64,000 bases of DNA, taken from assembly GCF_037975245.1 (NCBI RefSeq), contig NC_092583.1, positions 6,691,764-6,755,763 of the forward strand, in the 5' to 3' direction. This DNA is from Apostichopus japonicus. Taxonomy: Eukaryota > Echinodermata > Holothuroidea > Aspidochirotida > Stichopodidae. The position numbers were made by a program, and so were the translations under genes. The notes under the pieces were generated by a model. The model worked only from the letters and a program-made list of their open reading frames with translations, ran no database searches and was not told where the DNA came from. Of this stretch, positions 8,522-49,947 are shown piece by piece (within the stretch, counting starts at the first letter, position 1; each line of letters opens with the position of its first letter).

Positions 8522-8599
8522 ATCAGGACTCCAGCTGCTTTAATATATTCTCGTAGAACTAATTAAGCACATATCAAAAATGGCCAGCAAAGTAACCTC
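8522..8599 (+). CDS. Exon with start codon (coding 8580-8599), residues 1-6
   Basis: The acceptor AG at 8520-8521 follows a pyrimidine tract and the donor gtaagt starts at 8600. ATG at 8580 encodes MASKVT plus two bases (TC), which join the first base of the next exon to give serine. An in-frame TAA at 8541-8543 means the frame cannot extend upstream in this exon. The context aaaATGG is favourable. Confidence 0.6.
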
Positions 8600-11500
8600 G
8601 TAAGTATTATATTTTATATATTTTTTATTATTTTTTATAAATGATCCCAATGTATTTCCAGTATATAAGAAAAGTATTTTTCTTTACTTTACATTCACCT
8701 TTGCACAAGCAATGTGTATGCCGAAAATCTTTCATAAACAGATAAAAGACGTTCTCCAAATAACTCCTGAATGTGGGAAAGAGTTCAGTATCGAAGGGGG
8801 GGGGGGGTGGCATACAATTCCAAAGGGTAGTAGGACATCACGGTGTCGATTCTTTGGGGGAGGTAAAGCACAAAGCCATCTAAAATCACCGATAAAATGG
8901 ATCCTCTCTGCATTCTGCGCCACGAATGCCACGAATGCCATTATTTTAATACGACAACGATACAGCACCTTTCGATTGATTACTTTATGTATTAGTAAAG
9001 GAGCACTTCCTGTTTACACTTTTCCTAAATGTCTCCACAAAATGACTTATTTTAATACCAAAATGAAAAAGTCCGGCTATTGTCCAAAATGGGTACATCT
9101 TCTATGAAACAGAGCATTTCTTAACGTCTTTGTTACAAAACAGGAGGAACGTTGCCCCTCGTATCCTAGGCATCGGGTCAATCGCCCCTGGATTTAACAC
9201 AAAAGGTTTATGTCAAAGCTTAGCCTGGTAGACATAGAGGATGACTTTACTTTAGGTGCATAATTAAAGTCGATATGTTGTAGACCTTTAAAACACATAT
9301 GTTATCAGCCCATGTTGGATGTCCCTTTATACAAACGAGGTTCATCCCTTTGAAAGTACTGGACCGTACTTAGACTTATACAAAGTTCAGTTTCTCGGAT
9401 ATAACACAAAACTCACCGTGTAAGACGTTTATGGCCTCAAATGCCATGTTAAGATACATTGCAAATGTTCGATATCATCCAATGGTGCTTTATGTAGATA
9501 AAAGTATATGTTATGGTGGATTTGTTAGAATTTTTAAACAATGGATTAACAATAGATTTAGGATTGCACTGAGGCGCTCACGTCATCGATCCCTTATAAC
9601 TGATCATTCCAAAGTGTTGACATATTTTGAAGGTAAATATTTTGGAAACCTGTGTAGCTATAGAAACATAATCACTAGAAGTGAAACTTGTCCTTTGTTT
9701 TTTGGGACTATAATACGTCAAAAAACTCAAGACTAAAATTCTGTCTGAAGCCCCCCCGTGAAAACTTTAGACCAAGTTGGCTCCCTTTAATAGCGCCATC
9801 AATCATCATTAGCGGTGCCGTTTGACTTTTTTAGCTTTTTGGAATAGCGCCATCATTTACATCTTGTGACCGAGTGTCACTTTCTTTCAGTTTTTGGCGT
9901 TGAATGCGCATGAATTTATGTATGTGGTTAACACACAGGAAGAGTTGAATCAGAACGTTACACCAGTACATGCGTATGATAACGATGAATATTGAAGATA
10001 AATACATCGTGTTCGTGCAAACTAAATAAAGACTATGCAATTTCATCAATTTTACTGAAACTGCCTATTAACAAGGCCTATAGTCGATGTTGTTATATAT
10101 GTAAGACAAATTTGTGAAAGGAATATTTCATAAACACACAGTAATTAATTTCAAATGTTTGTCTATTAATCTCTGATACTTTAATAGGAAAGTATTTTAT
10201 TCGGTCGATTTTCCAATTTCTAGCACTTTTTACTCTGCTCGCCATATATACATGCATGCGGTCGACACGTTTTTCTTTACGTTTATGCGGCAGAGGGTTC
10301 TTAAGGGGAATATGCTATACTTGCTAGAAGTATTCGAAAAGTACTTTTCTGCAGGTCTCTACTCTCCAAATTGTTCTCAAACAGTTTTAAGGAATACACA
10401 AGATGACTAAATGTCCCAGTGAGGACAATTTTTTCGAAGGTCGTAATAAAATCAGTTTTAAAAATTTTGACCAAAGGTGACCATATTTGTGTATCTATCA
10501 TTTTTGGGGCCAATGCAGCATAACTTGAAGTCATGGATCTGCAGGGCCAGTATCCTAATTATTAGGCCTTTGAACGTCTCATTTCTTATATCTTCGAGAT
10601 TACCATGCCGATCAATTTGATGTGTACATTTCGTGCTATTGTGGGTCACGACTTTGTAGTTCCATGTATAAATCAACAGCTTTGAAATAAATAAGTGCCG
10701 TTTGTAAGACCTAGGCTATATAGCTATTTCGCAGGTTGAGAGCTGTTCATCAATATTCCTTCGATCTAAAAATCAACTCTAAATTCTTCGTTACCACGGA
10801 TACAACCTTCCAACCCTGACCTAACTTTTCACTTTTTGCCTTCCACACACACAGAGTGCATACAACGATACCGCGATTCACTGTACAAGATGGTGGTTTC
10901 GAGGTGTCGGCGATGGACGTGCTAGATACAGGCCGTTTGGCTGTCGCTGGATACAATAAGAAGACAAACTGCAGCTTTATTGATCTGTTTATGTTACAAT
11001 TTGATCCTGATTCTCAAGAAAAACCGTTATTATTGACGTCAGAGCCTTACTATTCTGAGGAATTTTTCGAGTTTGGTTCAGAATGGCGGTCTGTTTGTTT
11101 CCTGGATGATCGTCTGTTTTTAACGTGTTGTAAAAATACGATAACATTGTACGATAGTAGCAATGGCGGTCTGGTCAAGCAAGGGAAGTTTAACGGTACA
11201 GCCTGGTGTATGACAACCAGAGATGGGTTAGTCTATGTCGGTTTAGGATCCAATGAGGTGATTGTCTTAGATGCAAGAAAATGGAGAATAAAGAAGACAA
11301 TCACCTTAAAAGGATTAAGAGGTAGAGAATGGCCCGGGGATATAACAGTTAGTAATAATAAACTGTTTATCTGTACAGACTTTAGGAGAGCTTTAGTGTG
11401 TAATAGTGAGGGAGAAATAGAACAGGAATATACAAACACACAGTACAGATATGCATGTAGTATAACAGTCAGTGAAGAGAAAGGATTAATATTTATATTA

Positions 11501-14500
11501 TGGGGTAGTGGTGTGGGTAGACAAGTTGTTGTTTACTCTCTATGTGGGGGTCATTCTTCCATCTCTGGGGGTCATTCTTCCATCTCTGGTGGTCATATCT
11601 TGGCTTCTTTTAATGTTTCTCATAATTCCAGGAGAATCAGGATCAATAATAACATAAACATATTGTTTTTGGTTACTGGAACAACTGGAGAAGTATATGA
11701 ATATCACACAGTAAGTACTAATACAGGATTTATAGGCCTATGGTAAAAATTAGGACTATCACTTTTATTAAAGCAATCCTTTGATTGAAGCTTAACAAAT
11801 TGGGTAACATTCTATGCGAAAAAGTTAGGAGAAGATACTTTTACATGTTTTGAGATCTGCTTTGCAAAATTTAAAGAAAATTGAGAACATTTTTTTCCAT
11901 GTGATTTGCTGATTCTGATAAGGTTGTCTTGGAAGTGTTTCTGTCAATGTACAAATGGGAAATTTGTTTTCCTTATTATCTCAGCCTTCATGCTTCAAAT
12001 ATTGACAAAATTGGTACTAGGGAATGCGGAATTTTATTAAGAACACAACTTTTACTTGTTTGTTAAGAGAGAGATCAAAATGGTGGAAAATAGAGTGCAA
12101 AATTTTAGGAAAAATTAGGCCAGTGGATGCTTCTTACACTTTGCAATACTAAAGCAACACAATAAATTTGGCAAATATTTGTTCTTATTTTCTGAGCTTA
12201 TAAGCTGCTAATTTTTACAAATTTGGTATCAGTGAATGCGGAATTTCATTAAGAACATAACTATTACTTGTTTGTTACGAGGGAGATCAAAATGGTGGAA
12301 AAGTGAGTGCAAATTTTTTTTTCTTCAAAGTTTTAGACCATAGGATGCTTATTGCAAAGTGCAATAATACAGCAACACACAAAATTTGGCAAATATTTGT
12401 TCTTATTTTCTGAGCTTATAAGCTGCTAATTATTACAAATTTGGTATCAGTGAATGCGGAATTTTATGAAGAACACAACTATTACTGGTTTGTACAGAGG
12501 GAGATCAAAATGGTGGAAAAATGAGTGCACAATTTTATGAAAGTTTAGGCCATTGGATGCTCGTTGCACTTTGCAATATTAGGGCTACACACTAAACTTG
12601 GAAAAAAATTCTTATTTTCTGAGCTTACAACTTACAAGCTGTCAAAATTGGTATTACTGTAGTGAATGCAATCATATATAGTCTCAATAGTGCAATAAGT
12701 GAAATTTTGTTTGGCAATGATGTCTATATAATGAAAATCTAGGCCAACAATTCTATGAAAAGGGATGCGAGATGAATGGTGCATGGCATACAGCTCTGAC
12801 AATAAAGTATTTGTTTCTTTATCAATACTTTTGGTTGTCAAATATACAAATGTGACATAAATCAATGTAAAATGTTGTTAAAAACACCAGAGGTGCAATT
12901 TTCCATGATATGAGATAAATTTCAAGAAAAAGTAAGGGCAATATTTTTATCTTAATTTAGGCCATGGTGATTAGCTTGGCACTAGTTCACATGTATAGCA
13001 AATACTGCAGTGATAATACACGTCTTGATTTGATGACAGTATTAAAGTCTTGATAAAATGATATGACACAAGCTTGCTTCTATTTTGGGATGTAGTGCAG
13101 TTTATTTTGGTGCAAATAAGTCAAAATTGCAGATAAAGAAGGGAAAATTTGATTTTAGCCCGTGGTGCTAATTTTCACATGGTCAACAGAGTTAAGACTG
13201 CAAAATTCACAAAGCCATTGATATCATTTTTCATTACTTTTGAGGAGAGAAAGTTGTAGTTAAGTACAGGCTTTACTTTAATATGGATTGTATTGAGTCA
13301 GTTGGCAGTCTTATTTCAGTTCTATTCGAATTAGTTCATTTCACTGATGGCCAATGATTTCCAGTAATGCACAGTGTAATGTAGTCCTTATAAGTAACAA
13401 TATATAAGTAACAAATTTCGGATTAATTCCTGAGAAATTCCAAGTAGGTACAATTTAGTTGTACTACACTCATAATGAAGACCATATAGGAATAAGCAGG
13501 AAAATGGTGGCAAAAATGGAAAATGGACTGTGCAGTGTATTCCTGTCAATTTTGTGACAGTAACGATTATAGACATCACTTTGTGCAAGTGACGATACAC
13601 AATATCCTGCTCGATCGTCTAAATGTGCAGTACATTACTTAATTGTAGTGACCAAGCATACAGTGTAATGTATGCAATTGTTATGAACATGGATTAAACA
13701 TGATCATTACTATCCATTGCATAGGAGAGCATTTATACCACATGTCAACCAGTGTAAGAACAATGGTCTTCATGTAAGGCCTTTTTTGGTTTCGATGAAT
13801 ATCGTAACCTATACAGTATGCATTCATAATGGCGTATGTGTGTGTACGGGTGGGTGCGTGTGTGCGTTTGTGACCCCCAGCTTGTAAACACAATATCTCA
13901 AGAAGGGAAAGCGGGACCAACTTCATGTTTGGTGTGTGGATGTACCACATTGAGCACAAGTAGCCTATTGATTTCTGTGGAGGTCAAAGGTCAGTTGAGG
14001 TCACCAGGGGTCAAAATGTGGAAACCTTGTAAACACAATATCTCAAGAAGGGAGGCTTAGGCAGACCTCATATTTGGTGTGTAAATGTACCACATTGAGC
14101 ACAAGAAGCCTATTGTTTTCTGTGGATGTCAAAGATCATTTAGGGTCACCAGGGTCAAATTGTGAAAACCTTGTAAACACAATAGCTCAAGAAAGGAAGC
14201 TTGGGCAGACTTCATATATAATGTATAGAAGTACCACATTGAGTACAGGAAGCCTATTGTTTTCTGTGGAGGTCATTTAGGGTCGCTAGGGGTCAAAATG
14301 CCAATACCTTGTAAACACGATATCTCAAGAAAGGAAGTTGGGGCAAACCTCATATTTAATGTGTAGAAGTACCACATTGAGTACACAAAGCCTTTTGTTT
14401 TCTGTGGAAGTCAAAGGTCATTTGGGGTCACCAGAGGTCAAAATTTGAAAACATTGTAAACCCGTTATCTCATGAAGGGAAGCATGGGCTGACCTCATAT

Positions 14501-17500
14501 TTAGTGTTTAGAGGTACAGTACCCCATTGAGTACAACAAGTCTGTTTGTTTTTGGTGGAGGTCAAAGGTCTTTTGGGGTCACCAGAGGTCAAAATTTGAA
14601 AACCTTGAAAACACGATATCTCAAGAAGGGAAGCTCGGACCAACTCTTATTTAGTGTGTAGACGTACCACATTGAGTACAGGAAGGTTAATGTTTTTGGT
14701 GTAGGTCAAAGGTCATTTGGGGACAACAGGTCAAATTGTGAAAATTTTGTAAAATTTTGTAAAATTGATATTGCAAGAAAGGACATATCTCATTGGTTTG
14801 TAGATGTACATACCATATTAACTTTAAGGAGCCTATTATTGCTTTTGGTGGAGTTCAAAGGTCATTTGAAGTCAGCAAATGCCAAACATTTACTTCACTC
14901 CCCTCTTACCTGTCTCTCCACACTAACACATCTTCCTTAACATAATATCCTAAGGGAAGCTTGGACAGATTGCATATTTGGAATGTAATTGTACCACATT
15001 AAGTACAAGAAGCCATGTTGTGGGCGGAGGTCAATGGTTCCCTTACTCAAAATCCATATCTGGCCCATATATGGCAATTTGTATCTGGCCCATATCTGTG
15101 CCATATATGGAATTTATATCTGGCCATATCAAGAATTGGGCAGATATAACTTGATATTAGATAAAGGCCATATCTGCCTCAGATAAAACTTTATGGTTCA
15201 CTTTTTATCTGAACCAGATATGGTCCATATATGGCAAATCCATATCTGGACCATATATGGCAAATCCATATCTGGCCCATATATGGCAAATCCATATCTG
15301 GCCCATATATAGCAGATCCATATGGCTTATATATGGCAAATCCATATCTGGCCCATATATGGCAATTTGTATCTGGCCCATATCTGTGCCATATATGGAA
15401 TTTATATCTGGCCATATCAAGAATTGGGCAGATATAACTTGATATAAGATAAAGGCCATATCTGCCTCAGATAAAACTTTATATGGGTCACTTTTTATCT
15501 GGACCAGATATTGTCCATATATGGCAAATCCATATCTGGCCCATATATGGCAAATCCATATCTGGCCCATATATGGCAAATCCATATCTGGCCCATATAT
15601 GGCAAATCTATATCTGGCCCATATATAGCAGATCCATATATGGCTTATATATGGCAAATCCATATATGGCCCATATATATGGCAAATCCATATCTGGCCC
15701 ATATATGGCAAATCCATATCTGGCTCATATATGCCACATCCATATATATTGCCCTTGGCAAATCCATTACTGCCCCATATTATGATAAATCCAGATTGAA
15801 CTAGTTAAAAAAAAAATGGCTTCATCTGTGCCAGAACTTCATCTGGCGATTGTAAAGAAATATAATTTGAAACCAAATAAGGGCAATATATGACGCATAT
15901 AAAGCAACTCTTTATTTACTGCTTAATTATCTGGCCATTAATTACATTTCCTGTTTGATCCATCAGCAGGTATTTTTCTCTTTCTTGTTTCACTTTACCC
16001 ACAGTATGTCCAAGCCTTTACAAATAATAAACTAATATTAAAAAAGGGTCTTCTGTTCAGACGATTATTGAGGCAATATGACCGTCAGAACAAAAATACA
16101 TGGTTAAGAGAATAAAATATCCTGGCATGATAAAATGCTCCACGAATTAATTGGCACTTGAAAGCTTGCTTCATGACAAAATGCCCATCACTCTGCCGTC
16201 TCTATGCTGTCTTCAGTCTCTGCAAGGTCTGCGAGTCCTTTTCATCGACACAATTTTCAAAACAATGACGAAGACATAAAGTCGGGATTACTTTATTCCC
16301 AGCACATTCCAAACCCAATTGTGTACATAACTTTTTTTTGTGACACATAGTTTTATTTATGACTCACAATGCTTCCAACTAGAAAGAGATTTCAAAATCA
16401 TTTCAAGTTGTGTCTGACAAACCAATCTCCAGACATTTAGACCAAAAAAAGCAGGGCTTAATTGGAGGTAAAGATCAACTTATCTTGGACTTAAGAATCT
16501 GCAGTTTTGGCCTCAAACATATCGCTAAAAAAGCTCCTTGCTGTTACCTAATCCGACTGCTATGGTCATAAAATGACCGCTGTTCAATAAAATACTTGAA
16601 GGTTGAGTTCTTTACTCTTCTGTGGTCCTGTAGAGGTTGATACTAAATTGCAGTGTGCTATTCCCGTATTTGATATACTTGCTTTAGTAAATAAGTTCCA
16701 GGAGGGCGATATATGTTCCATTCAGTATTGAAGATCAGTCCCAAATATGTTGTTTCCATCCATTCCAAAAATATTCTTCCTTACTTCTGACTGTTCAGTT
16801 CACTGTAGAATCCTTTGCCAATGTCCTAACTCAATAGGTTATTTTTTACAAATCTCCATCACCCTTCCAATTCTTTCTATTAAATTTCCTTCTGTTCTCT
16901 ACCCCTACCATGTGTAAACTGTTTTCCTATCTCACTCGATCCCAGAGTATCAATACACATATGTCCTTTGTTCCAAAGAATTCACAATCTTAAATGTATA
17001 TTCAGTTATATCTCGCTATATATGGTTAGATAAAACTTTATCTGCATATCTGGATAGACTCTATGTCCAGTTATATCTGGCTTTATATCTTTATTAGGCC
17101 AGATACAATTTTATATGCCTATCTGGATTGTCTCTATATCCAGTTATATCTGGCTTTATATGGCTATATCAAACCTGTTATAGATATCTGGATTACAAAT
17201 ACAGTATATCCAGATATATCTGGCTTCATATGCATGGCCATATCAAACTTTATATGCATATCTGGCTTACAATTATATCCAGTTATATCTGGCTTTATAT
17301 GGCCATATCAAACTTGATATGGATATCTAGCTAACAATTATATCAAGATATATCTGGCTTTATATGGCCAAATAAACTTAATATGCGTATCTGGATTGAC
17401 TCTATATCCAGTTATATCTGGCTTTATATGGTCATATCAAACTTGATATGGATATCTGGATTACAATTATACCAAGATATATTTGGCTTTATATGGCCAT

Positions 17501-29500: not shown

Positions 29501-32500
29501 TGGACCGAAGAGAAATCTGTTGATTGGAAGCTAGAACCGGAGAGGATCAGTCTTGATATTAACATCCTGAGCTACGTCTTTGTTAATTTAGTCAGCCAAG
29601 AAACAGAACAGAAGCATATATTCCGTATTGTTCCATTTATTGACGGGATACTGGATGCCAAAGATGATGTTTTAATAACTGTTTGTTTCTGTAAGGACAG
29701 TGATGAAGAGTACAAGGTGAGGATAATTTCCTGTTACCGTGGTGATATCTGTAGCAGTTTGAGGTGAATTCTGCATTGTGCTGTGATCTGTAGGTCGGAT
29801 ACTGGGAATCTTGCTTACTTTCATGATTTGTATAAGGAAATGTTATCATGTATTACTGGCAAATTATGAAGTGATTGGTGAAGGGTACATTTGTGTGACA
29901 TATTTATTGATTCATTATGAGAAGAAACACCGTTACATTTGAAATACCAGACATTTACACTTAATTTGCAACAATGATTTTGAGGATCTGATAGAAACAA
30001 GCAACATTATTGGTAATTTTATTAATTTAAGGGAACAGAAGCTGCTGTTACTTGCTACAGCAGTATTGATGAAGAATAGTGAAGCTGCACAACAAATTGC
30101 ATAATTGACTCTGCTTTTTGTTCATTACTTATCCATGTTCTTTTGGTTTAGTTGTTGTTAGAGGACCATAATTCCAAACTGAGTCTAGGAAACTATACAA
30201 CATTTCAAGTTACCCGGACATTGAATGACGGCAGAGATTATGCCTCTTACATTGATCTGATGATGTTATCGCCCGGTGATAGTTACCATCTGATGAAGGA
30301 AGAATCAAGAAAGGTTTGTAATCACCAATGCTATTAAAATTTGTCTTCTAACATTACATGTAAGACTAGTAGTCAAGGATTGGTTACCTGAAGTGGATCA
30401 AAATGTTGTAGTGGTTAGCATTTTGGCCTTACAACTACTACTTTCTGGTTATAAAAATACCCAACAGTGACCATAATCTATGCAAACGTCTGGTGGGCAG
30501 TGTTGTTTAGCAGAATCTTGTGAGGGATGGTATTTTCAGTTGATGAATTAGGAAGTGAAGTTTGGTCCTATATTCTTTCACATGGTTTAATAAAAAGTTT
30601 CACTCACCATGGCTGCACTTTTGTGATCATGAATGGGGGTGTCTTTAATTCACCTCCCTTTGTATTTTTAGTTAGTTTTCAGGTGCTGTGACAAATTTGC
30701 AGGACAATTAGGTGGCTGTCCTATAAGCAGAAATGAGTGAGCCAATTACATGTATTCCCAGTAATTCTCTGAACACTCATCAAAAAGAGTAGGATTGATG
30801 TAAGCCAATATTCATCTACAATCCCATTAACATCTATGGCTCGACTTTATTTCTGTAGGGTTTCTACCCCATGGGACAAAATAAACCTAAATATTGTTAT
30901 GGAATTCTTTGATACAATTACCAGGTTTTCAGTTAGTTCGTTTCTATATATGTATGGAATTGTTTCTTTGAGTACATACTGTATCAAGCATTCTCATCCT
31001 CATTATAACTGATTTTCAATATCTTTAATCCATTAGCGTGTAGACATTGATCACCTCTGTGCTGCCAGTAGAGTCTCTCATCAGTTCAGACTTAAAAGAA
31101 ACAACGATGGAGACACTGACATGGTTGATGTGAAGTTAAAAGTATCACAACATGAGAAGAACCAGACAGCCCTTGTCCTCCAATCAAAGGTGAGTTATGT
31201 CTGCTGTTATTGTCTTTCAGCTGTTTGTGTTCTCATATGACTCTTCATAACATAATTCTCTCTTCTGATCATTTCTTTGCTTAGTAATATCCTGTCTGCT
31301 GGAAGTCTTGCAACTTTTTTTCAGGCTGACTGAATAATGTCAGTGCTGCGACTGAATTATAGTTATTTGTTGGCATATTAAGAGTGTTAGCTCAGTGGTT
31401 AAAGCCGGTGCCTTTCAATCATAAGGTCCCGAGTTCGAGTCACTCCAAGATCAATTTATGTCATCCAGTTACAGAGTTGTTGACAATTCATAATCATGGA
31501 CATTAAAATATGAATGTAAGAGACTGACTTCGGTCAGCTTGCTGCTATTAGAAGCCACTGATGGCTTCTCCGCTAATTCCTGCTTGCAGAAGGATCTAAA
31601 ATACATACATACATGTTCTCTCATGGATCCTTTCCTTTGTAATATTCATAGTGGATGTCAATTGAATTTAATTATATTAGTCTGTTATTCTGTAATTGAT
31701 GAGTAACTCAAAATACAGTGAATTGCTGAAAAAAGGTACATATCATCTGTGGTTTATTTAACGCACCGGTCAACAATTACTGGAAACTTGTTTTGTGGGT
31801 ATCTTAGGTACAAATAAATACACCATAAATGATAGGTATGTTGTCATCAAGATTCCTTTCCTTGGGATTTCACACATTTATTATGTGTTGTTCTATGTCT
31901 GTTTCAGCCCAATTTTTCTACATTACATTTCTTCTTTAATCCTATTCAGTCACAGGGGTGTGATAGATAGTCTGCACTATTGTATGTTAACAATTCTTAC
32001 ATGTAAAGTTTCATTGGTCATATATTTTTCGGTTTGTTTCTTTAGGTGAAGCACATTCTCTTATCTCCGGAAAGCCAAGAAATTCTTTTTAGAGAACAAA
32101 ATCCAGGTGAGTTTTTAAGTGGAATTTGAACAAATGGTTTTACTTAGTTTTAAAATCCACCCTGAACTGCTTATTAGTGAAGTTGAAACAAAAAATGAAT
32201 GCTAATAGTCTTAGACATACACCAGGTAAGTGTGCATTAGTAGAGATGAAAAGGTAAGCATACATACAGAACATGGACCCAGGTGAGTGTCAAAGTAGAG
32301 GCGAAAATGTAATAGCATTTGGTTTTAGAAGTAAACATACCTAAGTGTCACTTATAACAACTAAGTTATTGAGAAACACCAACAACTACTTTGTAGCTCA
32401 AAGCAACTTTTGTAAGTGAAACTGTATACAAGACTAGAATTTATGCACAAAACGAGGGCTAATAGTTGAAAAGTTGCATGCAAGTTGTGGACAGTATAAT

Positions 32501-35500
32501 TAACCAATTTATTGTGTGCACGCACCAACGTTCTCCATGCAAAGGTTGCATGCTTCTTGTGGGCCAGTTGTGTACTTACTTGTGCATGTTAGTTGTGAAC
32601 ATTGCTCATTGTTCAAACCTGGCACACAATTAGCCTGTGATTCATGCAGTCTTAGTGATACATGCGAATCTAGTCTTCTCTCCTTTGAATGTAATGTGGA
32701 TGTTGTTGTCCTCACTTTCAGACTTAGACAAATATGAAAAGTTGAAAGGAGACATTGCAAAGCTTCTGGATAAACAACATTGTAAACAGCTAGGTATGGT
32801 CTTTGGGCTCACGCCAGCAGAAAATGAAACAATTCAGGAAGCAGCAGAATCTGGAAAGACGCTGATGAAAATATTGGATGAAAGAGAGCTCATCATGCCA
32901 GACAGAATGATCGGACTGTATGAAGGATTGAAAGCTATTCACTATAATAAGGTGGCAAGACTGGTGCTGGAGTACATTGATACGTCACAGGAGAAGAATG
33001 GAAAGGAAAACGGAGGAGAGAAAGATGATAAGAAAATGGTTTGTGCTTTGTAAAACATTGTTAAGACTTAACACTTTAAGCGTGAAGCAAAGCAAAAGTC
33101 AATTTGAATAAAATCAAGATCTTACAAGGTTAGAAGGCCTAGTACAGACTGTACTTTCTGATATGAAAAGTATTCTTTTAGCTGTTCTACAAGTCTGTCT
33201 GAAAATTCATCCTTGCACTAATGGTGACAGTTTCTGCTTATACCTAAAGTTACGTTTATATATATCAAATGTACAGGAGGTCTGTGTAGAAATTTACTTA
33301 GCCAAATCAAACACAGTAAATAGTTTTCTATCTTCATAAAGAGTTATAAAAAATGTGAAATTTATAAACAATTTGTACTATATCAACATTATTGTTTCAG
33401 GTAAAAGTTCCAGGGAAACCGGTAGTCATTTCAAAGAGGGAACCACAATTGTCAGTCAATTTCAAAATTTTGATAGAAGAGGGATACAAGAAACTGGATG
33501 TCCAAAGAGCCTTGAAATTGTCTCATGGAAAACTGGACTTGGGAAGACGGCTATTGCTGCTTGCTAAGGAAGAGCATGGTAAAGTACCCATATAGTCAGC
33601 TACATGGGTATATCTTATTTATGTCTTCCTGAATTTAGTAACTTAAATCAATCTAGGACCACATTTCGTTTCCTTAGCTGCTTCAGTGCTCATGGAAGAA
33701 AAAAATATTTTTATTTATATTTTTAGGAATATTACTCACAAATTAGCTCCAAAATAGAAATGTAATCTAGATGCTGTAAATAACCTACTTCTTGTTACTG
33801 TTAATGAAAATTTCTCTTCTACATCTATTTCCATTACTCACATCAAACATGACTTATGTTCACTCTTCCTCCTTTTATTATTGTAATATCTACAAATAGC
33901 CAAAAGATTAAAGCAGATTTGTGTTCAAGAGGCTATTTTCATGATGTGAATTGAAACAGTATATTTAATTAACAGATGTTTAATGATAGTGGCAAAATAC
34001 TTTCCTTTCACATGAAATATATTACTTTTCTCCTCCAGAGAGACTTCCTTTGTTCCCAGGGTCAAATCTTTATAAAGAACAATACTTTGATCAGCGTGGA
34101 GGAGAGATGTTTATCGCAGGTGTTAGCCTGCATGTACCAGCTGGGGCACTACACACTGGAAGGATTGTTAGTCTGTGGGTTTCTACTGAACCTGCCATTA
34201 AAGGACCTTCCTCAAACAAGAGTCTCAGGTTGACACCCTTTGTGAAATTTGGTCCAGAAAGCCTTACTTTACACAAGCCTGTCACATTGATTATTCCACA
34301 CTGTGCTTTCACTACAACTAACCAGATGGGTCTTGATGTGTACTCTGGTGTCTTACAAACAGGTCTGTTGTTTACTTTTGCCGTGTGTTTTTCTACTCCA
34401 GTGAGCGTTATATATAGTCAATAATATTTCTTTTATCACAGAAATATGTCTATGTGCTTGTGTGTACCACCTCTTGACTAGATGATATGCTTCAAAGTGC
34501 ATAATGGTGTTATTTGACACTGGGTGTGTGGTTCCATGTTAAATGAAGAAGAAAAATGCTTCTTCTGTAGAGGTCAAAGTCTGAAACATTGTAAGCAGAA
34601 TGATTCAAGAAAGGTTGTGTGAACTTCATATGTACTATTTAGAGTCACACTTGATATGTGAAACCACCTGAGTATACACACACAATATTGGGAAGAAATT
34701 CAGTAAGCCTTCTGACTCTGTGTAATGTAAAAGTCAATATCTCAAGAAGGAGGTATTTTCCATCTCCATTTCAAGAAACGTTTAGTTGTACTTTGAGAGC
34801 AAACATTTCAAATGAAATAAGCAACATTTCCAAAGGGAAATAATACCCTTGAAGCTGTGTTAAACTTCAGGGTTTTATCTAGTGACCTTGCATCCATGCA
34901 TAGAGTTAGAAAGATAATAGATTACTATTTTGATGTTCTATGTATGCAGTGATGCATTTTCTACCACCAGACTATCCCTTTAAAATCATCTGTGGTATGT
35001 GTTAGGATGGGTGTTCTACCTTCACCATGTTATAAAAACTTACAAGCAAAATGTTTCAAAATTTCCTTCAGATAATTCTGTCAAATGGAGCTTAGAAAGG
35101 AAACACCTCAGCTGCTCTATGAATAGTCAGCACCTTGCAGTTAAAGCTGAGAAACCCTGTCTCATTGGTCTTCATGTCCCTTTCATACCTAAGATGAGGA
35201 AGCGTGTTTGTATTTTACCGATTGTAAACAGAGTCTCTGATTCGGGGGATCAATTGACAATCCATCTTTGGTTTCATAATGATGACACACTCGAACATGA
35301 AGTAAGTAGCAGCTTTTGTCAGCTCAAGTGGTATTGCTAAATAACTTATGGATTCCAGTTGTCTGCCCTTCTGTATGACACATGGTTCATGGTTCATACA
35401 CAGAAGTGTACAGGGTTCATACATTGTTAACCATAGCTATTTAACGATGGAAATGGTAAAGTTCTAGCTTGATGCCCTACAAACTTAAACCTCTCCGACA

Positions 35501-38399
35501 GTCAATAGTGATGATGTAGGTAAGGGAAGGGTCAAGTGAGATAAGCTGGTTAAGGCTATCTGTGGTCATTAATGGTTGTAAATTATAACTTTGCAGTGGT
35601 CAAAAGCACACTGATCAGATGTCCTAAAACAAAATTGAATGTTAATAATTTATTGTTGGTGGTCATTGACAACTGACAACAAGTCAATTGTAAATAAATG
35701 TAATTACAGACACATTTGTAAACACACCTGACCAGGTGTCCAAGATTAGACAGCAAAGATTAATATTCCAGAACATAGGCTGTCAGACTATTAAAGATCT
35801 TTGATAATGCATCCTATCAGACACTCCATTATATTAGATATTCATAGTATCTCCTTTTATTTCTCGAAGAATGACCACACCAGAGAGGGCGATACGGGGG
35901 CGCAGTTATAGCTTCCTGGTCATACATAGGACAACTGAGCAATGTGTGCATTGTTGTTAATATTCAAATTTACATAAATAATCATATAATATTAAATTGT
36001 TTCATTTTTTATATTAATAGAGTCTTATCAATGAAGAAATCTACCAGCAAAAGGGAACCATAATTCATGATCCTGTGTTTGTTCATCTCAAATCTATGGC
36101 TTCAACTTTACATGTTAGCACTAACTCCAGTACCTCACAGTGTAACCCACATCCTAGAAAAGTGGTTAGTAATATTTGTTAAATATTTTTATTTATTTGT
36201 TGGCAACATGAAAAGAATGCAGCTAATTCCTGTTCCATGGGTAATTTGCATTTGTTGGAAGAAAAGTTATATGCATCTATTGAGTGGTATGTATATAATG
36301 TAAGCATATGTTGTTATTGAAATAAAACATTATCTTATTTTAAAATTGCCTCCTGCTGCCATTCCTATGATATTCAATTAATAAAAAGTGGTCAGATGGT
36401 CCCAGCTGCAGTTGTCTATACAGTTGATTTCATTCTGGAGAAGTCCTTCATTCCATCCTCATTGACTATCTATGTATCGATTATATAAGTACTTTGTAAT
36501 GTGTATAACTGTTATATATTTTTTATTTATTTGCTAATACGAATAATCATTCAGTTCAAAGCTTATAAGAGCTGAATAGAATATGAAGATGATAGTTTAT
36601 AGTCTAGCCTGAAGACCAAAGCCTTATCAAATGACTTTACAATCTCAATATGCATAATTGCATTAGTTGGTCATCTGTCAAAATAAAGTACGAAGCTACT
36701 TTACAAATCACTTTGCATTTTCCAATGTTTACACCTGGATGAAGACAGGCAGTTGATGTTAATTCCCCTGCCCAAGGCCAGATCATAACGATACAGTCGA
36801 CCAGTACTGGGACCTGCATTCTTTTAATTGCAAGCCTGGTGCTCTAACAACTTGACCACCATGTTAAAGGCTCTCAAAAGTTTGATAAATTAATAATCAT
36901 CACTTGATTTTTCTCACTTCAAGGATGTCACTATGGAAACCCTATGGTTGAAGAACAGACACAAGGTAGAATTCCATCTTCAAAATAAAGGGCTCAAAGA
37001 AACTGTCAATCTGGAAATAGAAGCAAGATATGGGATGTCAGTGAAGAGTCTATTCCAGTTTAATATTCAGTTGCAGGTAACTTGATTTTGGTTTACATTA
37101 ACACAAAGAAAACTTTGCATACAAGGAATTTAATGTTCACTTTGGATTTATCTTAACTACCGAGACTCCTTTTATATTTATTTATTTTGTTTTTTTACCG
37201 TTATTGCATTCTTTAATTCACTCATGTTTTTATTTCTATTGAAATCTCTACTTTGTTTGCCTAACTTGATGAACTGATTTCCGTAATGCAGGATTAAAAC
37301 ATAATGTATCCTTATTATAAGCCATCTTCATATCACAAATGTAATACATACCAAATATCATAAACAGTTAGTACTAATTAGCATATCTTAACATTATCAC
37401 TTAAAACCACAGTTTTATACACACTGTCAAATGATTAATTTCCTCTTCACAGATTGACAAATTACTACATATTGACCAAATCAAATCTCCATTCCAGCAC
37501 ATCCTACCGGAATGTGAGTATAATTAATTACATGATTAAAATTTAATAGCATGTTAATTAAATGTAGGCGATTGTATATAAAGTGGTGATGTTTGCTTTA
37601 CAGTCCTTTCATATGAGAGTGTACATGTACAGTAATCTTACTTTTCATACTGCCTACAATTCCTTACATATCAGATGTGTGTACCTAATCCTACTTTGCA
37701 TAGAGGAGTCCTGGCTGCAATTGCCATGCCAACTGGTAGACCAACTATCAGCTATTTGCAATATTTGATATTAAGGAAAATCAGTTCTGACACCAAAGCA
37801 ACAAATGTAAAGACTGGATATATAGAATGTATTGAAGTCTCAATGCAGTGTAAACTAACAAATGATGAAATTCAAACACCTGTGTTGAAAATATACATTC
37901 TGGAGTGAAATCAGATTTTATATTTAGCACCATTGAAAACTGAGCTTTTAAAGTTTATTTTGCCAGTGTGTGTAAGAAACACATCACTGTTGTCTCACAA
38001 TTCTGAATGTTTGCATGAAACAGGTTCTGATGAATTAACTGTATGTAGAGTAATGTATTTAATGTATTTCCAATTTCCTTTTCTTTCAACCTCACAGACA
38101 TCATCAAATCTTTTGATCTGCTAAAGCAGAACTTATCAGAACATCTTGATGTAGACCAATCTACCCTGCTGGCAAATATTTTCCAACTTCCCGGGGAAGG
38201 AATTACTGATATCAAGAAGCACAAAACACCAGGAACTCTTTTATTAGAGAAGCTGACCCAGAATTCACTGATATCTCCCACAAACATCACAAAATTGGAA
38301 AATGCCCTAACAGAACAAGGCAAAGAAGAAAGTGCAAAACTGGTCAGAAAATTCAGAAGTAAAAATCCTGTAGTTCAAGCAACAATGTGCCCAGAATAA
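8580..38399 (+). CDS. Propeller-DED-coiled-coil-DED-(ZU5-UPA-DED)x2 protein, 20 coding exons
   Basis: This is one predicted 2158-residue protein. Joining 20 exons at GT/AG sites gives 6477 coding bases with every phase matching; exons are listed separately. Order: beta-propeller (about 10-290), DED-like (296-375), coiled coil (384-1090, with 42 perfect 14-residue units at 425-1012), DED-like (1130-1205), ZU5 (1290-1385), UPA-like (1390-1590), DED-like (1592-1680), UBA-like (1706-1752), ZU5 (1770-1863), UPA-like (1864-2059), DED-like (2062-2140). No signal peptide or membrane segment is seen, so it is probably cytosolic. ZU5-UPA plus death-fold modules are known from UNC5, PIDD and ankyrins. 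I know no named protein with this full order, so the role as an apoptotic or immune scaffold is inferred. The start codon is supported by an in-frame TAA at 8541 and by A at -3 and G at +4. Splitting into two or more transcripts cannot be excluded. Confidence 0.8.
10855..11710 (+). CDS. Coding exon 2: beta-propeller domain, residues 7-292
   Basis: The acceptor cacacacag ends at 10854 and the donor gtaagt is at 11711. The 285 residues show repeated short beta-strand patterns separated by about 40-45 residues, such as GRLAVAGY, RLFLTCC, GLVYVGLGSNEVIVLD, KLFICTD and GLIFILWGSGVGRQVVVYS. This is the pattern of NHL/WD-type propellers seen at the C-terminus of TRIM proteins, but here it is N-terminal and no RING or B-box precedes it. 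A 21-bp direct duplication at 11545-11590 adds a repeated GGHSSIS. The number of blades, perhaps six, cannot be fixed by eye. Confidence 0.8.
11545..11597 (+). repeat. 21-bp tandem duplication inside the propeller exon
   Basis: The unit gggggtcattcttccatctc followed by t occurs twice in a row, and a partial third copy follows (ggtggtcatatctt). It keeps the reading frame and encodes GGHSSIS twice. It probably lengthens a surface loop of the propeller. Confidence 0.85.
11930..12660 (+). repeat. Tandem repeat, unit about 215 bp, roughly 3.5 copies
   Basis: The phrase gaatgcggaatt recurs at 12022, 12234 and 12452 (spacing 212 and 218). Each is followed by aagaacac/ataac, gagatcaaaatggtgga and later ttcttattttctgagctta. 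The copies differ by substitutions and small indels, so the array is not very recent. No protein frame is preserved. Confidence 0.85.
13800..14900 (+). repeat. Dispersed repeat with 145-bp tandem modules carrying DR1 sites
   Basis: It starts with a GT-rich leader (13830-13880), then about seven modules. The phrase atatctcaagaa or its variants recurs at 13892, 14037, 14181, 14319, 14464, 14615 and 14767, giving periods of 138-152. Each full module has taccacattgagtacaagaa, then ggaggtcaaaggtca, ggggtcacc and ggtcaaaa. Perfect AGGTCAAAGGTCA occurs at 13981-13993 and 14703-14715; near-perfect ones occur at 14408-14420, 14559-14571 and 14852-14864. AGGTCA-N-AGGTCA (DR1) is the known binding pattern of HNF4, COUP-TF and RXR heterodimers. 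Confidence 0.9.
15056..15785 (+). repeat. Left subterminal array, unit about 26 bp
   Basis: The unit resembles catatctggcccatatatgg followed by caaatc. A longer block also repeats: tggcccatatatggcaattt occurs at 15061 and again at 15349, a shift of 288 bases. Open frames on both strands, rich in W, I, P and Y, are products of this repeat and not genes. Confidence 0.95.
17000..18085 (+). repeat. Right subterminal array, unit about 65 bp
   Basis: The phrase ggctttatatgg recurs at 17291, 17356, 17420 (with gtcatatc after it), 17485, 17550, 17615 and 17685, spaced 64-70 bases. Two unit versions tend to alternate: one with gattgactctatatccag and one with acaattataccaagata. The core atatggccatat is palindromic and shared in style with the left array. 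Confidence 0.95.
18103..18430 (+). repeat. Right part of intronic segment duplicated at 28.5-28.8 kb
   Basis: From ttgtttgagttcaccagggg onward the text parallels 28504-28780, sharing ctatcacatttagtacaaga, ggtcatttcaggacagcctg and cactgcttttcactttatta with small differences. The left part of the same segment is at 14830-15039. The element at 15040-18102 separates them. Confidence 0.85.
19427..19697 (+). CDS. Coding exon 3: first DED-like domain, residues 293-383
   Basis: The acceptor ttgtag ends at 19426 and the donor is gtatgt at 19698. The sequence has the hydrophobic spacing of a death effector domain: FDNLLMRSESLIEKDDCKKL, then LDYFEVP, FSSLVHHLREAGKVSVDDIN and LSKLMAVLTIYQQA. This six-helix pattern, with an L-x-x-L-R/E-x-x-G-x-V/I turn between helices 3 and 5, fits FADD or caspase-8 type DEDs better than CARDs. 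Assignment is by pattern only. Confidence 0.7.
20455..22442 (+). CDS. Coding exon 4: coiled coil with 42 tandem 14-residue units, residues 383-1045
   Basis: The acceptor tttcag ends at 20454 and the donor gttaga is at 22443. After a 41-residue charged lead-in, positions 20580-22343 (1764 bases) contain exactly 42 units of 42 bases. Typical units are TTEEERQQLTGRLK, TTEEEKQQLKDTLK and ATEEERQQLSQRLN. Fourteen residues make two heptads, with leucines placed for a continuous coiled coil. No unit is broken by an indel or a stop. The last part (from ATDKDF) is a non-repetitive coiled coil. Minus-strand open frames rich in Leu and Cys are shadows of the repeat. Confidence 0.92.
20580..22343 (+). 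repeat. Coding minisatellite, 42-bp unit x 42
   Basis: Units are nearly identical at the DNA level, including synonymous positions. A higher-order period of 252 bases (six units) is visible between about 20868 and 21372. This pattern indicates recent expansion by unequal exchange or slippage, with selection keeping the frame. Copy number is likely to vary between individuals and is easily mis-assembled. Confidence 0.95.
22738..22750 (+). promoter_or_regulatory. Perfect DR1 element in intron (repeat fragment)
   Basis: AGGTCAAAGGTCA is followed by ttgaggttaagtgaggtcaa, a short degraded fragment of the module repeat found at 13.9-14.9 kb. It is a sequence match to the nuclear receptor DR1 pattern; function is not shown. 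Confidence 0.4.
23551..23688 (+). CDS. Coding exon 5: end of coiled coil, residues 1046-1091
   Basis: The acceptor gtgacag ends at 23550 and the donor gtaaag is at 23689. The 46 codons in phase 0 read ELEEAKSSLRATKDELVKSQ and continue as charged helix ending in REALNQQEL. It extends the coiled coil without the 14-residue repeat. Confidence 0.85.
23706..24250. mobile_element. Possible 545-bp inverted-terminal element in intron
   Basis: The left edge ctttcccagat (23706-23716) is matched by atctgggaaag (24240-24250), an 11-base perfect inverted repeat. The interior is noticeably richer in GC and CpG than the surrounding intron and has internal variants of acgggttgttac and its complement. No clear target duplication was found. 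It could be a MITE-like insertion. Confidence 0.4.
24640..25250 (+). repeat. Third copy of the DR1-bearing repeat family
   Basis: A leader gggtgcgcacgggtgtg is followed by ttgtaaacacagtatctcaa and modules with gtcatttggggtc. A perfect AGGTCAAAGGTCA is at 25076-25088. Other modules are degraded, for example aggtcaaaaagtca near 24823 and a broken copy at about 25227. Confidence 0.8.
25322..25406 (+). CDS. Coding exon 6: linker, residues 1092-1120
   Basis: The acceptor tttgcag ends at 25321 and the donor gtagta is at 25407. The 85 bases encode an acidic linker beginning ASYASVTADETLLEECETPD, leaving one base that completes an alanine with the next exon. No domain is recognised. Confidence 0.75.
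27045..27368 (+). CDS. Coding exon 7: second DED-like domain, residues 1120-1228
   Basis: The acceptor cgtttcag ends at 27044 and the donor gtagga is at 27369. Helical text runs LDSTLKLATLFGLPPGETDM, then RRVSQYETPGITLINFMKTR and VTNLQKGLIYIQL. The motif LAxxFGLPxxE followed by TPGxxL recurs in the domains of exon 13 and exon 20, so these three are more like each other than like the exon 3 domain. A death-fold of DED type is the best reading. Confidence 0.7.
27870..28790 (+). repeat. Repeat copy and duplicated segment abutting exon 8
   Basis: It starts like the 13.8 kb copy (cgtaacctttgcattcatga and a GT-rich leader), has two to three DR1-type modules (aggtcgaaggtca at 28166-28178), then a segment from 28287 that parallels 14830-15039 and 18103-18430 as one continuous run. 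It ends about 45 bases before exon 8. It carries the apparent empty site of the inverted-terminal element near 28501-28504. Confidence 0.85.
28835..29317 (+). CDS. Coding exon 8: acidic linker and first ZU5 domain, residues 1228-1389
   Basis: The acceptor tttttag ends at 28834 and the donor gtaaag is at 29318. A charged linker of about 60 residues precedes a ZU5 domain. Typical ZU5 text is seen: GGTISIMGVHLTIPEDTL, then ISVKVIYDPD, MTPLIKLEPEGLALNKPAQL and TIPHSA. ZU5 domains form a beta-sandwich in UNC5, PIDD, ankyrin and ZO-1. The autoproteolytic HF-S type site of PIDD and FIIND proteins is not visible. Confidence 0.85.
29490..29716 (+). CDS. Coding exon 9: UPA-like part 1, residues 1389-1464
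   Basis: The acceptor attacag ends at 29489 and the donor gtgagg is at 29717. It encodes TWTEEKSVDWKLEPERISL and beta-rich text ending CFCKDSDEEYK. The position after ZU5 and the pattern W-x-L-E then S-x-x-V-x-V suit the UPA domain of UNC5/PIDD/ankyrin. It corresponds to exon 16 in length (227 versus 230 bases) and phase. Confidence 0.75.
30152..30313 (+). CDS. Coding exon 10: UPA-like part 2, residues 1465-1518
   Basis: The acceptor ggtttag ends at 30151 and the donor gtttgt is at 30314. The 54 codons in phase 0 run from LLLEDHNSKLSLGNYTTF to HLMKEESRK. This corresponds to exon 17 (144 bases, same phase). The donor is a weaker GT but the frame closes. Confidence 0.7.
31037..31189 (+). CDS. 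Coding exon 11: UPA-like part 3, residues 1519-1569
   Basis: The acceptor cattag ends at 31036 and the donor gtgagt is at 31190. The 51 codons include VSHQFRLKRNNDGDTDMVDV followed by KLKVSQHEKNQTALVLQSK. Exon 18 has the identical length (153 bases) and phase, and the matching pattern HKVEFHLQNKG. Confidence 0.75.
31384..31614 (+). mobile_element. tRNA-derived SINE, full-length-looking copy in intron
   Basis: The A box tagctcagtggtta is at about 31389-31402 and the B box gagttcgagtca at about 31431-31442. A body shared with the 56.3 kb copy follows (caatttatgtcatccagtta and cagagttgttgacaatt), then a non-tRNA 3' part and a short (atac)n tail. This is the structure of a Pol III-transcribed SINE moved by a LINE. 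No clear target duplication was found. Confidence 0.8.
32046..32106 (+). CDS. Coding exon 12: UPA-like end, residues 1570-1590
   Basis: The acceptor ctttag ends at 32045 and the donor gtgagt is at 32107. The 61 bases encode VKHILLSPESQEILFREQNP plus one base. Exon 19 is also exactly 61 bases in the same phase, which supports cassette duplication. Confidence 0.75.
32722..33038 (+). CDS. Coding exon 13: third DED-like domain, residues 1590-1695
   Basis: The acceptor actttcag ends at 32721 and the donor gtttgt is at 33039. The domain runs from YEKLKGDIAKLLDKQHCKQL through GMVFGLTPAENETIQEAAES to a final helix ARLVLEYI, then a charged tail rich in K, E and G. It matches exon 7 and exon 20 in helix spacing. 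The tail may be a flexible linker to the UBA-like exon. Confidence 0.75.
33401..33578 (+). CDS. Coding exon 14: UBA-like domain, residues 1696-1755
   Basis: The acceptor tttcag ends at 33400 and the donor gtaaag is at 33579. The core reads FKILIEEGYKKLDVQRALKL followed by SHGKLDLGRRLLLLAKEEH. Ubiquitin-associated domains have the same three-helix layout: a short helix, a G-[FY] turn, an x-x-A-L helix and an N/D-L-x-x-A-x-x-L-L helix. The usual hydrophobic-G-F loop is here E-G-Y. The function as a ubiquitin binder is inferred. The other cassette has no counterpart of this exon. Confidence 0.55.
34039..34362 (+). CDS. Coding exon 15: second ZU5 domain, residues 1755-1863
   Basis: The acceptor ctccag ends at 34038 and the donor gtctgt is at 34363. 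ZU5 text is clear: FDQRGGEMFIAGVSLHVPAG, IVSLWVSTEP, LTPFVKFGPESLTLHKPVTL and IIPHCAF. It shares the TPxxKxxPExLxLxKPxxLxIPH motif with exon 8 and the same entry and exit phase, but lacks the long acidic linker of exon 8. Confidence 0.85.
34540..34850 (+). repeat. Degraded copy of the DR1-type repeat
   Basis: The sequence gtagaggtcaaagtctgaaa is followed by cattgtaagcagaatgattc and, near 34738, atctcaagaagg. These match the module text of the 145-bp repeat in a worn form. No perfect DR1 remains. Confidence 0.5.
35072..35301 (+). CDS. Coding exon 16: UPA-like part 1 of cassette two, residues 1863-1939
   Basis: The acceptor ccttcag ends at 35071 and the donor gtaagt is at 35302. The text DNSVKWSLERKHLSCSMNSQ and then LIGLHVPFIPKMRKRVCIL parallels exon 9 (VDWKLEPERISLDINI). 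The phase is 1 in and 0 out, as in exon 9. Confidence 0.75.
36021..36164 (+). CDS. Coding exon 17: UPA-like part 2 of cassette two, residues 1940-1987
   Basis: The acceptor taatag ends at 36020 and the donor gttagt is at 36165. The 48 codons in phase 0 include EEIYQQKGTIIHDPVFVHL. It is the counterpart of exon 10 by position and phase; sequence similarity is weak. Confidence 0.65.
36924..37076 (+). CDS. Coding exon 18: UPA-like part 3 of cassette two, residues 1988-2038
   Basis: The acceptor cttcaag ends at 36923 and the donor gtaact is at 37077. The 51 codons contain LKNRHKVEFHLQNKGLKETV. It is the same length and phase as exon 11. Confidence 0.75.
37453..37513 (+). CDS. Coding exon 19: UPA-like end of cassette two, residues 2039-2059
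   Basis: The acceptor ttcacag ends at 37452 and the donor gtgagt is at 37514. The 61 bases encode IDKLLHIDQIKSPFQHILPE plus one base. The length equals exon 12. Confidence 0.75.
38098..38399 (+). CDS. Coding exon 20: fourth DED-like domain and stop, residues 2059-2158
   Basis: The acceptor ctcacag ends at 38097 and TAA is at 38397-38399. The domain is SFDLLKQNLSEHLDVDQSTL, then LANIFQLPGEGITDIKKHKT, PGTLLLEKL and a last helix ESAKLVRKF, followed by a short basic tail. It is close to the domains of exons 7 and 13. A candidate AATAAA lies at 38972-38977, but the 3' end is not established. Confidence 0.8.
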
Positions 38400-48100: not shown

Positions 48101-48568
48101 AGCCCCGAGTCTGTCAAGACCCGAGTCTGGGACACAGTTAAAGTCTCCGACCATGACACATGGTGCACTACCAGGAACAAAGGAAGGCAGCGTGTTAAAA
48201 AATTCTCGTCTAGCAGAAGGCCGATTGGGAGCATACACATTGCAGAGGGAGATGTTACCCTGTGGATACTTGAAAAGAATGCAAACCAATCGGCCCTCGT
48301 GATCCGTCTCCACCCTAGGGGCACAACCCGCCTGACGAGGTGACAGAAGGATGACAGTGCCACAGGATGAAGACGAACCAAACGAAGCATGCAGCCCACC
48401 ACCCCACTCATAAGCCCATAGAGGGACATCTTCTTCCAAAATATGTGTTTCTTGCAGGCAAACGCAGTCGACCTCCATTGAAATACAATATTGGAAAATG
48501 CGACTGCGCTTGCGATGATCCCTCATGCCATTCACGTTCAAAGTGGCAACTGAAAATGTATGGGCCAT
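45178..48568 (-). pseudogene. LINE ORF2, endonuclease-reverse transcriptase, two frameshifts
   Basis: The likely start is ATG at 48568 (MAHTFSVATLNVNG); the upstream in-frame TTG at 48586 is less likely. The APE-type endonuclease shows LNVNG, QETH, GDFNC, RIDRVY and PLSDHD. Reverse transcriptase shows GKSPGSDGLP, LLPKSGD, RGVRQGCPLSPLLY and the catalytic YADD (near 46530), then a C-terminal zinc knuckle with GCDSLESTAHVFWHC. Two one-base frame changes split it into three open frames: one at a four-base homopolymer at 47840-47843 and one at a five-base homopolymer at 47273-47277. All recognisable catalytic motifs are present, so the breaks are either recent mutations or sequence errors. Confidence 0.88.
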
Positions 48569-48588
48569 GAGAGGGCAATGGGGCAAAA

Positions 48589-49731: not shown

Positions 49732-49947
49732 GATACCGAAGGTGGCTAGGCCACAGGGGAGTAACACAAAACAAACAAAGGACCGGATAGTGAAACAACA
49801 AACGATATACGAACTGAGGAAAACACACGAACACAAGCTATCACACCCGCCTGGCGGGAAGTATAGCACAGCACAGTACAAAAACAGCTGTAACAGATGA
49901 AGAGCGAGAGCGAAAACACGTCCGCACTCCACGAAAGCCAACTGCCA

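Follow-up and report, generated by a model that had tools for sequence, protein, structure and literature searches.

A family of propeller and death-fold proteins in the sea cucumber Apostichopus japonicus: candidate non-self receptors with one hypervariable propeller face

NLR receptors form large, clustered and variable gene families. UNC5B, UNC5CL and the ankyrins have in common a block consisting of ZU5, UPA and a death fold, and in UNC5b the ZU5-UPA part holds the death fold closed. A ZU5-UPA unit (equivalent to the FIIND) followed by a death fold is also described for PIDD1, NLRP1 and CARD8, with sensor repeats coming first in PIDD and NLRP1 (PMC3210808). Amphioxus and bivalves possess expanded DED-TRADD-N-WD40 families, which are defined by TRADD-N and combine DEDs with variable propellers at the C-terminus; fusions with ZU5-UPA are mentioned as well (PMC8195603). 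In the fungus Podospora anserina, HET-D, HET-E and HNWD are death-inducing recognition proteins with WD40 propellers, in which positive selection acts on residues of the d-a loop and the b-c turn at the propeller top, paired around constrained sites (PMC1805685). These fungal proteins carry a NACHT domain and near-identical repeats in concerted evolution (PMC1805685).

The window analysed here, a stretch of 64,000 nucleotides of A. japonicus DNA (C23:6691764-6755763), contains a gene for a protein with an N-terminal propeller, followed by DED1, a repeat rod, DED2, a first ZU5-UPA unit with DED3, a UBA-like domain and a second ZU5-UPA unit with DED4. The fungal HET-D/E proteins are closest in evolutionary behaviour, with the same face and the same loops of the propeller under selection (PMC1805685). 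The window protein differs from them in that no NACHT was found in the Pfam scans, that its six dissimilar blades lie in a single exon and that DED, ZU5-UPA and UBA parts follow the propeller. The DED-TRADD-N-WD40 expansions, likewise families of marine invertebrates with DEDs and variable propellers, are the closest animal precedent. TRADD-N was undetected in Pfam scans of the window protein, and divergent forms of this domain exist that Pfam may miss (PMC8195603); moreover, the propeller of the window protein is N-terminal, and it is accompanied by four DEDs and two ZU5-UPA units. In contrast to PIDD1, NLRP1 and CARD8, the window protein has no HF/S or SF/S motif, a DED replaces the DD or CARD, a propeller replaces the LRRs, and two separate ZU5-UPA-DED units are present. 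UNC5B and the ankyrins gave the top fold matches of the ZU5-UPA-death-fold block (obtained with a weak model), whereas neither a membrane receptor part nor ankyrin repeats were found in the window protein, which adds DEDs, propeller, UBA and a long rod to the block and belongs to a family of very large copy number. Size, clustering and variability are shared with the NLRs, and a Holothuria leucospilota model (P0043), which may be fused, joins DED-NACHT to rod end, DED2, ZU5, UPA and DED3. Unlike NLRs, the window protein gave no Pfam match to NACHT or LRR in residues 1-382 and 1120-2158 or in exons 4-5 (exon 6, 28 residues, lay outside the scan).

Since HET-D/E and the DED-TRADD-N-WD40 proteins are precedents, and since PIDD, NLRP1 and UNC5 share the ZU5-UPA-death-fold core, we regard the family as diversified intracellular death-fold receptors and not as something categorically new. 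With a probability of roughly 0.7, it represents a sea cucumber family of intracellular receptors for non-self, serving immunity or allorecognition, that recognise ligands by the top face of the propeller and signal via their DEDs. A family with the order propeller-DED-ZU5-UPA was not found described in the open-access literature searched. The portion of PMC8195603 considered here does not describe the propeller-DED-ZU5-UPA protein of the window, and neither 'ZU5' nor 'propeller' occurs in the available main text of a preprint on gene-family expansion in sea cucumbers (PMC13228809).

Exon 2 (10855-11710; all exons of the gene lie on the + strand) encodes a predicted six-bladed WD40-like beta-propeller with a hypervariable top face. 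AlphaFold2 on 18 propellers gave a pLDDT of 86.5 and 24 strands, which in our reading of the model would form six blades closed by the N-terminal strand. Foldseek returned 1620 PDB matches at E ≤ 0.001. The best 50 of these are WD40 or designed propellers judging by their titles (query TM 0.50-0.64), and the best fold matches include ATG16L1, COP1 and G-beta, all of them WD40 propellers. The pLDDT fell below 50 at residues 232-244. This is the GGHSSIS repeat region in the C-D loop of blade 5, encoded by an in-frame 21-nt repeat (11545-11601, + strand) that was detected by TRF and also occurs in close paralogs. The initial annotation had associated the propeller with NHL. Model quality and Foldseek matches bear out a beta-propeller, but NHL was dropped as its type: the fold is WD40-like, and the NHL repeat profile matched only 1 of the 18 propellers, not the one in the window, with several other propeller families matching equally weakly. 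Propeller-based sensing, suggested at the same time, is strengthened by the hypervariable face.

The D-A and B-C loops of a propeller share one face. This arrangement has also been described for HET-E (PMC1805685). To compare faces, strand limits were taken unadjusted from the AlphaFold2 model, and the comparison was chosen after the alignment had been inspected. Selection was assessed by a counting method on 12-13 paralogs (not alleles) from tandemly arrayed genes, where gene conversion probably occurs; sequences with an in-frame stop (L043) or a broken frame (the C19 propeller) were kept and stop codons skipped. Over all pairs of 12 close paralogs, pN/pS was 1.92 in the top loops (61 codons), 0.36 in the bottom loops and 0.73 in the strands. 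Both top loops contributed (D-A 1.81, B-C 2.03), and both bottom loops were low (A-B 0.25, C-D 0.42). Among single strands, strand A reached 1.22 and strand D 2.32, the latter on a pS of only 0.027. None of 5000 codon permutations reached the observed difference in pN between top and rest.

Disjoint pairs gave the same picture. Six such pairs were drawn from 13 sequences, with L056 left unpaired. In the top loops, 171.3 nonsynonymous and 26.7 synonymous differences corresponded to a ratio of 1.76 (Fisher test of N versus S, p 0.002), while the rest of the propeller had a ratio of 0.76 (p 0.06); top and rest differed with p 0.0013, and the top ratio exceeded the rest ratio in all six pairs. Entropy was calculated for the propeller of the window together with those of 25 of the 36 public models, 26 A. 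japonicus propellers in all, and revealed an alternating pattern within strand A. Position 2 reached 2.85, 0.97, 2.25, 3.38, 2.80 and 2.52 bits in blades 1 to 6, whereas positions 1 and 3 had at most 0.52 bits in every blade. In blade 1, positions 4 and 5 of strand A were variable as well.

The face contrast recurs in Holothuria and in a second A. japonicus clade. Among three H. leucospilota propellers (from 3 of 8 models), pairwise differences amounted to 53 of 172 at top sites and 75 of 594 elsewhere. For the clade on contig C12, the top set was widened by strand A position 2, picked after the entropy result. With this set, 36% of the top sites and 9% of the others differed between L051 and L052 (ratios 3.20 and 1.09). 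The contrast was kept in the more distant pairs L051/L053, L052/L053 and L049/L050, with top ratios of 0.94, 0.87 and 1.01 and rest ratios of 0.56-0.64. By these counting tests on paralogs, there is an excess of amino-acid change on one face of the propeller. The face contrast was examined in the propeller domain alone. Ratios of the other exons were mostly below 1, with exceptions in single pairs of the six for DED1 (1.21, 1.34), DED3 (1.16), exon 6 (1.60, 1.71) and exon 12 (1.36).

The selection pattern of the propeller matches that of the fungal allorecognition propellers. It is conceivable, if doubtful, that the same architecture serves allorecognition or self-marking, as in HET-D/E, and is not directed at pathogens. 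It is unlikely that the genes encode a UNC5- or ankyrin-like protein with a conserved adaptor or scaffold role in apoptosis or development, one that has merely multiplied in copy number and whose propeller varies under relaxed constraint. Such a role would fit the ZU5-UPA-death-fold block, which is nearest in fold to UNC5b and ankyrin, the name 'Netrin receptor UNC5' carried by some public family members, and the pN/pS of the whole propeller, which is only 0.59-0.72. However, relaxation would not lift pN over pS on one face only, and it would not leave positions 1 and 3 of strand A almost unchanged in six blades where position 2 is hypervariable. Nor was a transmembrane-like stretch found, the highest 19-residue hydropathy window being 1.42, under the usual threshold of about 1.6. 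Membership among the UNC5 receptors, as implied by the public names and the ZU5-UPA block, was rejected, with neither a transmembrane-like window nor any Pfam match to extracellular Ig or TSP domains in the window protein.

Very unlikely, in our judgement, is an origin of the face-specific variation mainly in gene conversion or recombination among propellers instead of selection on amino acids. The genes lie in tandem arrays, the propellers of amphioxus DED-TRADD-N-WD40 proteins are said to diversify by recombination (PMC8195603), and synonymous divergence in the disjoint pairs was somewhat higher on the top (0.116 versus 0.080). Over all pairs, however, pS was alike in top loops and strands (0.123 and 0.111) while pN differed about threefold (0.235 and 0.081), so that the ratio differs and not just the level.

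The receptor reading places the signalling parts behind the propeller. Both ZU5 domains that the initial annotation had recognised score above the curated Pfam cut-off of 21 bits. The first, preceded by a linker, is encoded by exon 8 (28835-29317; 33.5 bits, E 5e-8) and the second by exon 15 (34039-34362; 50.5 bits, E 2.5e-13), which also matched a UNC5B chain at E 3.2e-10. Pfam UPA had no match in residues 1-382 and 1120-2158 of the window protein. Exons 9 (29490-29716), 10 (30152-30313) and 11 (31037-31189) are assigned to UPA 1, exon 9 spanning ZU5 and UPA, on the basis of paralogs and of the fold of the homologous block in a related protein, P0046. The ZU5-UPA-DED model of P0046 matched the UNC5b cytoplasmic domain best (Foldseek E 3e-14, 434 columns, TM only 0.27/0.36), followed by ZU5-ZU5-UPA-DD of ankyrin-B (E 4e-10, TM only 0.20/0.21). 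The public P0046 model begins inside DED2 and, by eye, appears mis-spliced in UPA. Because TM-scores are low and the structure model is weak (mean pLDDT 57), the UNC5b match lends support to the fold of the block but is not proof. Exons 16 (35072-35301), 17 (36021-36164) and 18 (36924-37076) have counterparts in paralogs and are named UPA 2 from their position, analogous to the first unit.

The autoproteolysis motif of PIDD, CARD8 and NLRP1 is HF/S or SF/S after ZU5 (PMC3210808). The pattern [HS]F[ST] occurs nowhere in the window model; HFS is present in a few other family members, as a pattern match unaligned to the cleavage site. With this motif absent, FIIND-type autoproteolysis was rejected, and the window protein is unlikely to be processed in the way of PIDD, CARD8 and NLRP1.

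The four death folds are encoded by exons 3 (DED1, 19427-19697), 7 (DED2, 27045-27368; 72-91% identity in paralogs), 13 (DED3, 32722-33038) and 20 (DED4 and the stop codon, 38098-38399). They align as one family, which also takes in the N-terminal domain of an NLR model from a holothurian. A profile of 10 death-fold sequences, which includes all four exons (profile A5), found five cFLIP chains as its only matches below E 0.001, the best at 2.1e-4 for the whole chain and 0.0081 for a single domain. The other four matches up to E 1 were two vFLIPs (0.65 and 0.74), a SusD homolog (0.62) and carbonic anhydrase XIV (0.89). Pfam DED was matched by 4 of the 10 profile members, at best with 2.1e-4. 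Taken alone, all window exons fall beneath the Pfam DED cut-off: DED1 with E 0.025, DED3 with E 0.0058, and DED2 and DED4 with no Pfam match at all. For none of the helical domains was a family outside the death folds convincing; the CHMP7 winged-helix match of DED1 (E 0.028) is about as weak as its DED match. Thus, the four DED-like domains named in the initial annotation have moderate support as death folds related by sequence to the DED and not to other death folds.

The UBA-like domain is encoded by exon 14 (33401-33578), which had no Pfam match. Profile A2, consisting of only two sequences over this part, matched six UBA chains of CBL and CBL-B with a best E of 5.2e-4. In the same search, a ribosomal protein S25 chain was matched to the UPA2 part with an E-value of 1.3e-4, which is lower than that of the UBA match. 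The S25 match is probably due to chance and indicates that E-values of the size of the UBA match can arise by chance.

Exon 4 (20455-22442) encodes a rod of 44 units of exactly 14 residues each in perfect register. The 42 units given in the initial annotation agree with the 13.9 copies of 126 nt (about 42 units) found by TRF; 44 result when the rod is read in exact 14-residue units. Of the four core positions expected, two are occupied by leucine, and the rod could be either a single charged helix or a coiled coil. Measured from DED1 to exon 5, its length spans 60 to 893 residues across 33 sequences, which are mostly automated models and include some isoforms of the same gene. Exon 5 (23551-23688) is the conserved rod end, 93-96% identical in three close paralogs and absent from the matches in a fourth locus. 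It is followed by a 28-residue acidic linker in exon 6 (25322-25406), present in four paralogous loci. Two short joining exons precede DED3 and DED4, exon 12 (32046-32106), present in four paralogous loci, and exon 19 (37453-37513), also found in paralogs.

A rebuild by hand assembly yielded a gene model identical to the initial one, with 20 exons (8580-38399, + strand), 6477 nt, 2158 residues, closing phases and a single terminal stop. Exon 1 (8580-8599) consists of the start codon and the sequence for MASKVTS, ends in phase 2 and is followed by a GT donor. The in-frame stop reported ahead of the ATG is a TAA at 8541-8543, 13 codons upstream. Of the 36 public A. japonicus models, 26 have a counterpart of exactly seven residues before the VHTTIPRF-like propeller start. 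Only exon 6 required a dedicated search during assembly; it was located in four paralogous loci. Exons 2, 3 and 5-20 are collinear on one strand at three loci that hold close paralogs (C15:21.26 Mb, C15:27.39 Mb and C19:3.95 Mb), and a fourth locus, which has diverged further (C23:3.75 Mb), has all compared exons except exon 5; exon 1 was excluded as too short and exon 4 as too repetitive. AG and GT occurred at the exact predicted positions in 49 of 51 exons (exons 2, 3 and 5-19 of the three close loci), compared with a background frequency of 0.057 for each dinucleotide. Both misses lie in the C19 locus, at the donor of exon 2, where the reading frame is broken, and at the acceptor of exon 6.

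Public A. japonicus proteins match the window protein at up to 94% identity. Eleven parts were compared (propeller, DED1, rod end, DED2, ZU5, UPA, DED3, UBA, ZU5, UPA and DED4). All of them occur in order in 22 of the 36 public models, two of these with a partial propeller; the remaining 14 are partial, among them P0006 and P0019 without propeller and P0032 and P0033 without the second cassette. Transcripts ending between exons 2 and 3 or between exons 6 and 7 were not seen, and public models join both halves. As exon order, splice sites and public models agree across paralogs, the gene model is judged right and the gene is real, not a product of chance. The overall layout thus holds, with domain types upheld to differing degrees: ZU5 and propeller are strongly supported, the DEDs moderately, and UPA and UBA less well. 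The wrong joining of two adjacent genes (propeller-DED-rod and ZU5-UPA-DED), to which the 7.7-kb intron between exons 2 and 3, the introns of about 1.6 kb flanking exon 6 and public models of one half only (P0006, P0019) might point, is scarcely credible and was ruled out by phase-consistent joins with splice sites kept in paralogs, by the 22 of 36 public models that cover all parts, by the co-orientation of propeller and ZU5 exons (at least 91 versus 0 among the best 150 of 204 ZU5 candidates) and by H. leucospilota P0041, which runs from propeller through DED4.

Exon lengths would permit in-frame skipping of exons 12-13 (378 nt) and of exons 15-19 (912 nt). DED3 is missing from public model P0024 and the second ZU5-UPA from P0034-P0036, and all four carry isoform names. 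Lengths and models together suggest isoforms with fewer effector units. Within the 7.7-kb intron between propeller and DED1, dense tandem arrays occupy 15214-15745 and 17120-18052 (26/52-bp and 65/203/259-bp periods), the first with near-palindromic CCATATATGG units. Downstream of the gene, a LINE-type retrotransposon lies on the minus strand (45181-49950), with RVT_1 (E 4e-31), an endonuclease (E 2e-20), a first ORF with zinc knuckle and a GC content higher than its surroundings.

The A. japonicus genome (671.6 Mb, 35 contigs) was searched for further copies; all whole-genome counts are lower bounds. The propeller exon occurs at no fewer than 110 distinct places (126 rows minus 16 second fragments and weak matches): 52 on C12, 22 on C15, 15 on C23, 10 on C19, 5 each on C16 and C11, and 1 on C7. 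At 18 of the 110 places a stop lies inside the match; these were not called pseudogenes because the query held intronic residues at both ends. Among the best 150 of 204 ZU5 candidates, at least 91 of the 110 propellers have a ZU5 exon downstream on the same strand, no more than 45 kb away and with no other propeller in between, and none has a downstream ZU5 on the opposite strand within 45 kb. Near-complete DED4 exons were found at 48 or more places (70 rows minus 22 fragments and weak matches, from the best 150 of 279 candidates). Outside C12 and C7, at least 42 of 57 propellers have a DED4 downstream on the same strand (median 25.5 kb), with none on the opposite strand among the matches listed.

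On C12, 51 of the 52 propeller exons lie at 23.4-34.2 Mb and are 35-47% identical to that of the window; they probably constitute a second sub-family. Only a single weak DED4 match (28 bits) falls on C12 among the best 150 of 279 candidates, and the C-terminus of the C12 genes may or may not differ. A further region of this contig (19.4-20.0 Mb) contains 15 of the best 150 ZU5 exons with no propeller place close by; these may use another N-terminal domain. In the A. japonicus paralogs P0032 and P0033, precomputed Pfam annotation lists a Death domain, and no second ZU5-UPA-DED4 cassette follows the UBA.

In H. leucospilota, which belongs to another family of the same order (NCBI taxonomy), eight proteins cover 55-100% of the query region at 36-40% identity. 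A second protein search listed 14 entries of this species, counting the query and one short match. P0041 displays the order propeller, rod end, DED2, ZU5, UPA, DED3, ZU5, UPA and DED4; DED1 and UBA were not detected in it by BLASTP. Domain order is nearly the same, and its conservation extends over public models from two families of sea cucumbers. No species beyond these two appeared among the matches listed, in a search that needs shared 5-residue words and is length-limited. P0043, in which a DED-NACHT (NLR) part continues into the rod end-DED2-ZU5-UPA-DED3 portion of the propeller family, may represent a sensor swap or a fused annotation.

For the proposed receptors we infer that they recognise ligands, reside in the cytosol, are autoinhibited, assemble through their DEDs and produce a signalling output. 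The six-bladed propeller would bind, with its top face, a ligand that differs from gene to gene, and a helical stalk of 14-residue repeats, variable in length, would carry or oligomerise the propeller. The two ZU5-UPA units may keep the adjacent DEDs closed, as in UNC5b. On ligand binding and clustering, the four DEDs would become free and might then seed a DED assembly, either of the FADD/caspase-8 type or together with DED-bearing NLRs. The latter partnership is suggested by P0043, whose DED-NACHT stands ahead of the same block, possibly through fused annotation. Such an assembly could lead to cell death or NF-kB signalling, and the UBA domain might couple the output to ubiquitin.

A little less confidently than the receptor function itself, but still as the probable case, we consider the family a previously undescribed animal receptor system of about 100 genes, without LRR or NACHT, in which a diversified propeller face is wired via DED, ZU5-UPA and UBA to a death-type assembly, and whose variable surface arose independently at the positions used by HET-E. 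If this is right, echinoderm immunity would gain a large and directly testable recognition repertoire. The variable sites, the signalling parts and the gene arrays have already been mapped, in a farmed species prone to infectious disease. Furthermore, animals and fungi would have converged on the same solution, diversifying the top loops of a propeller and wiring them to cell death.
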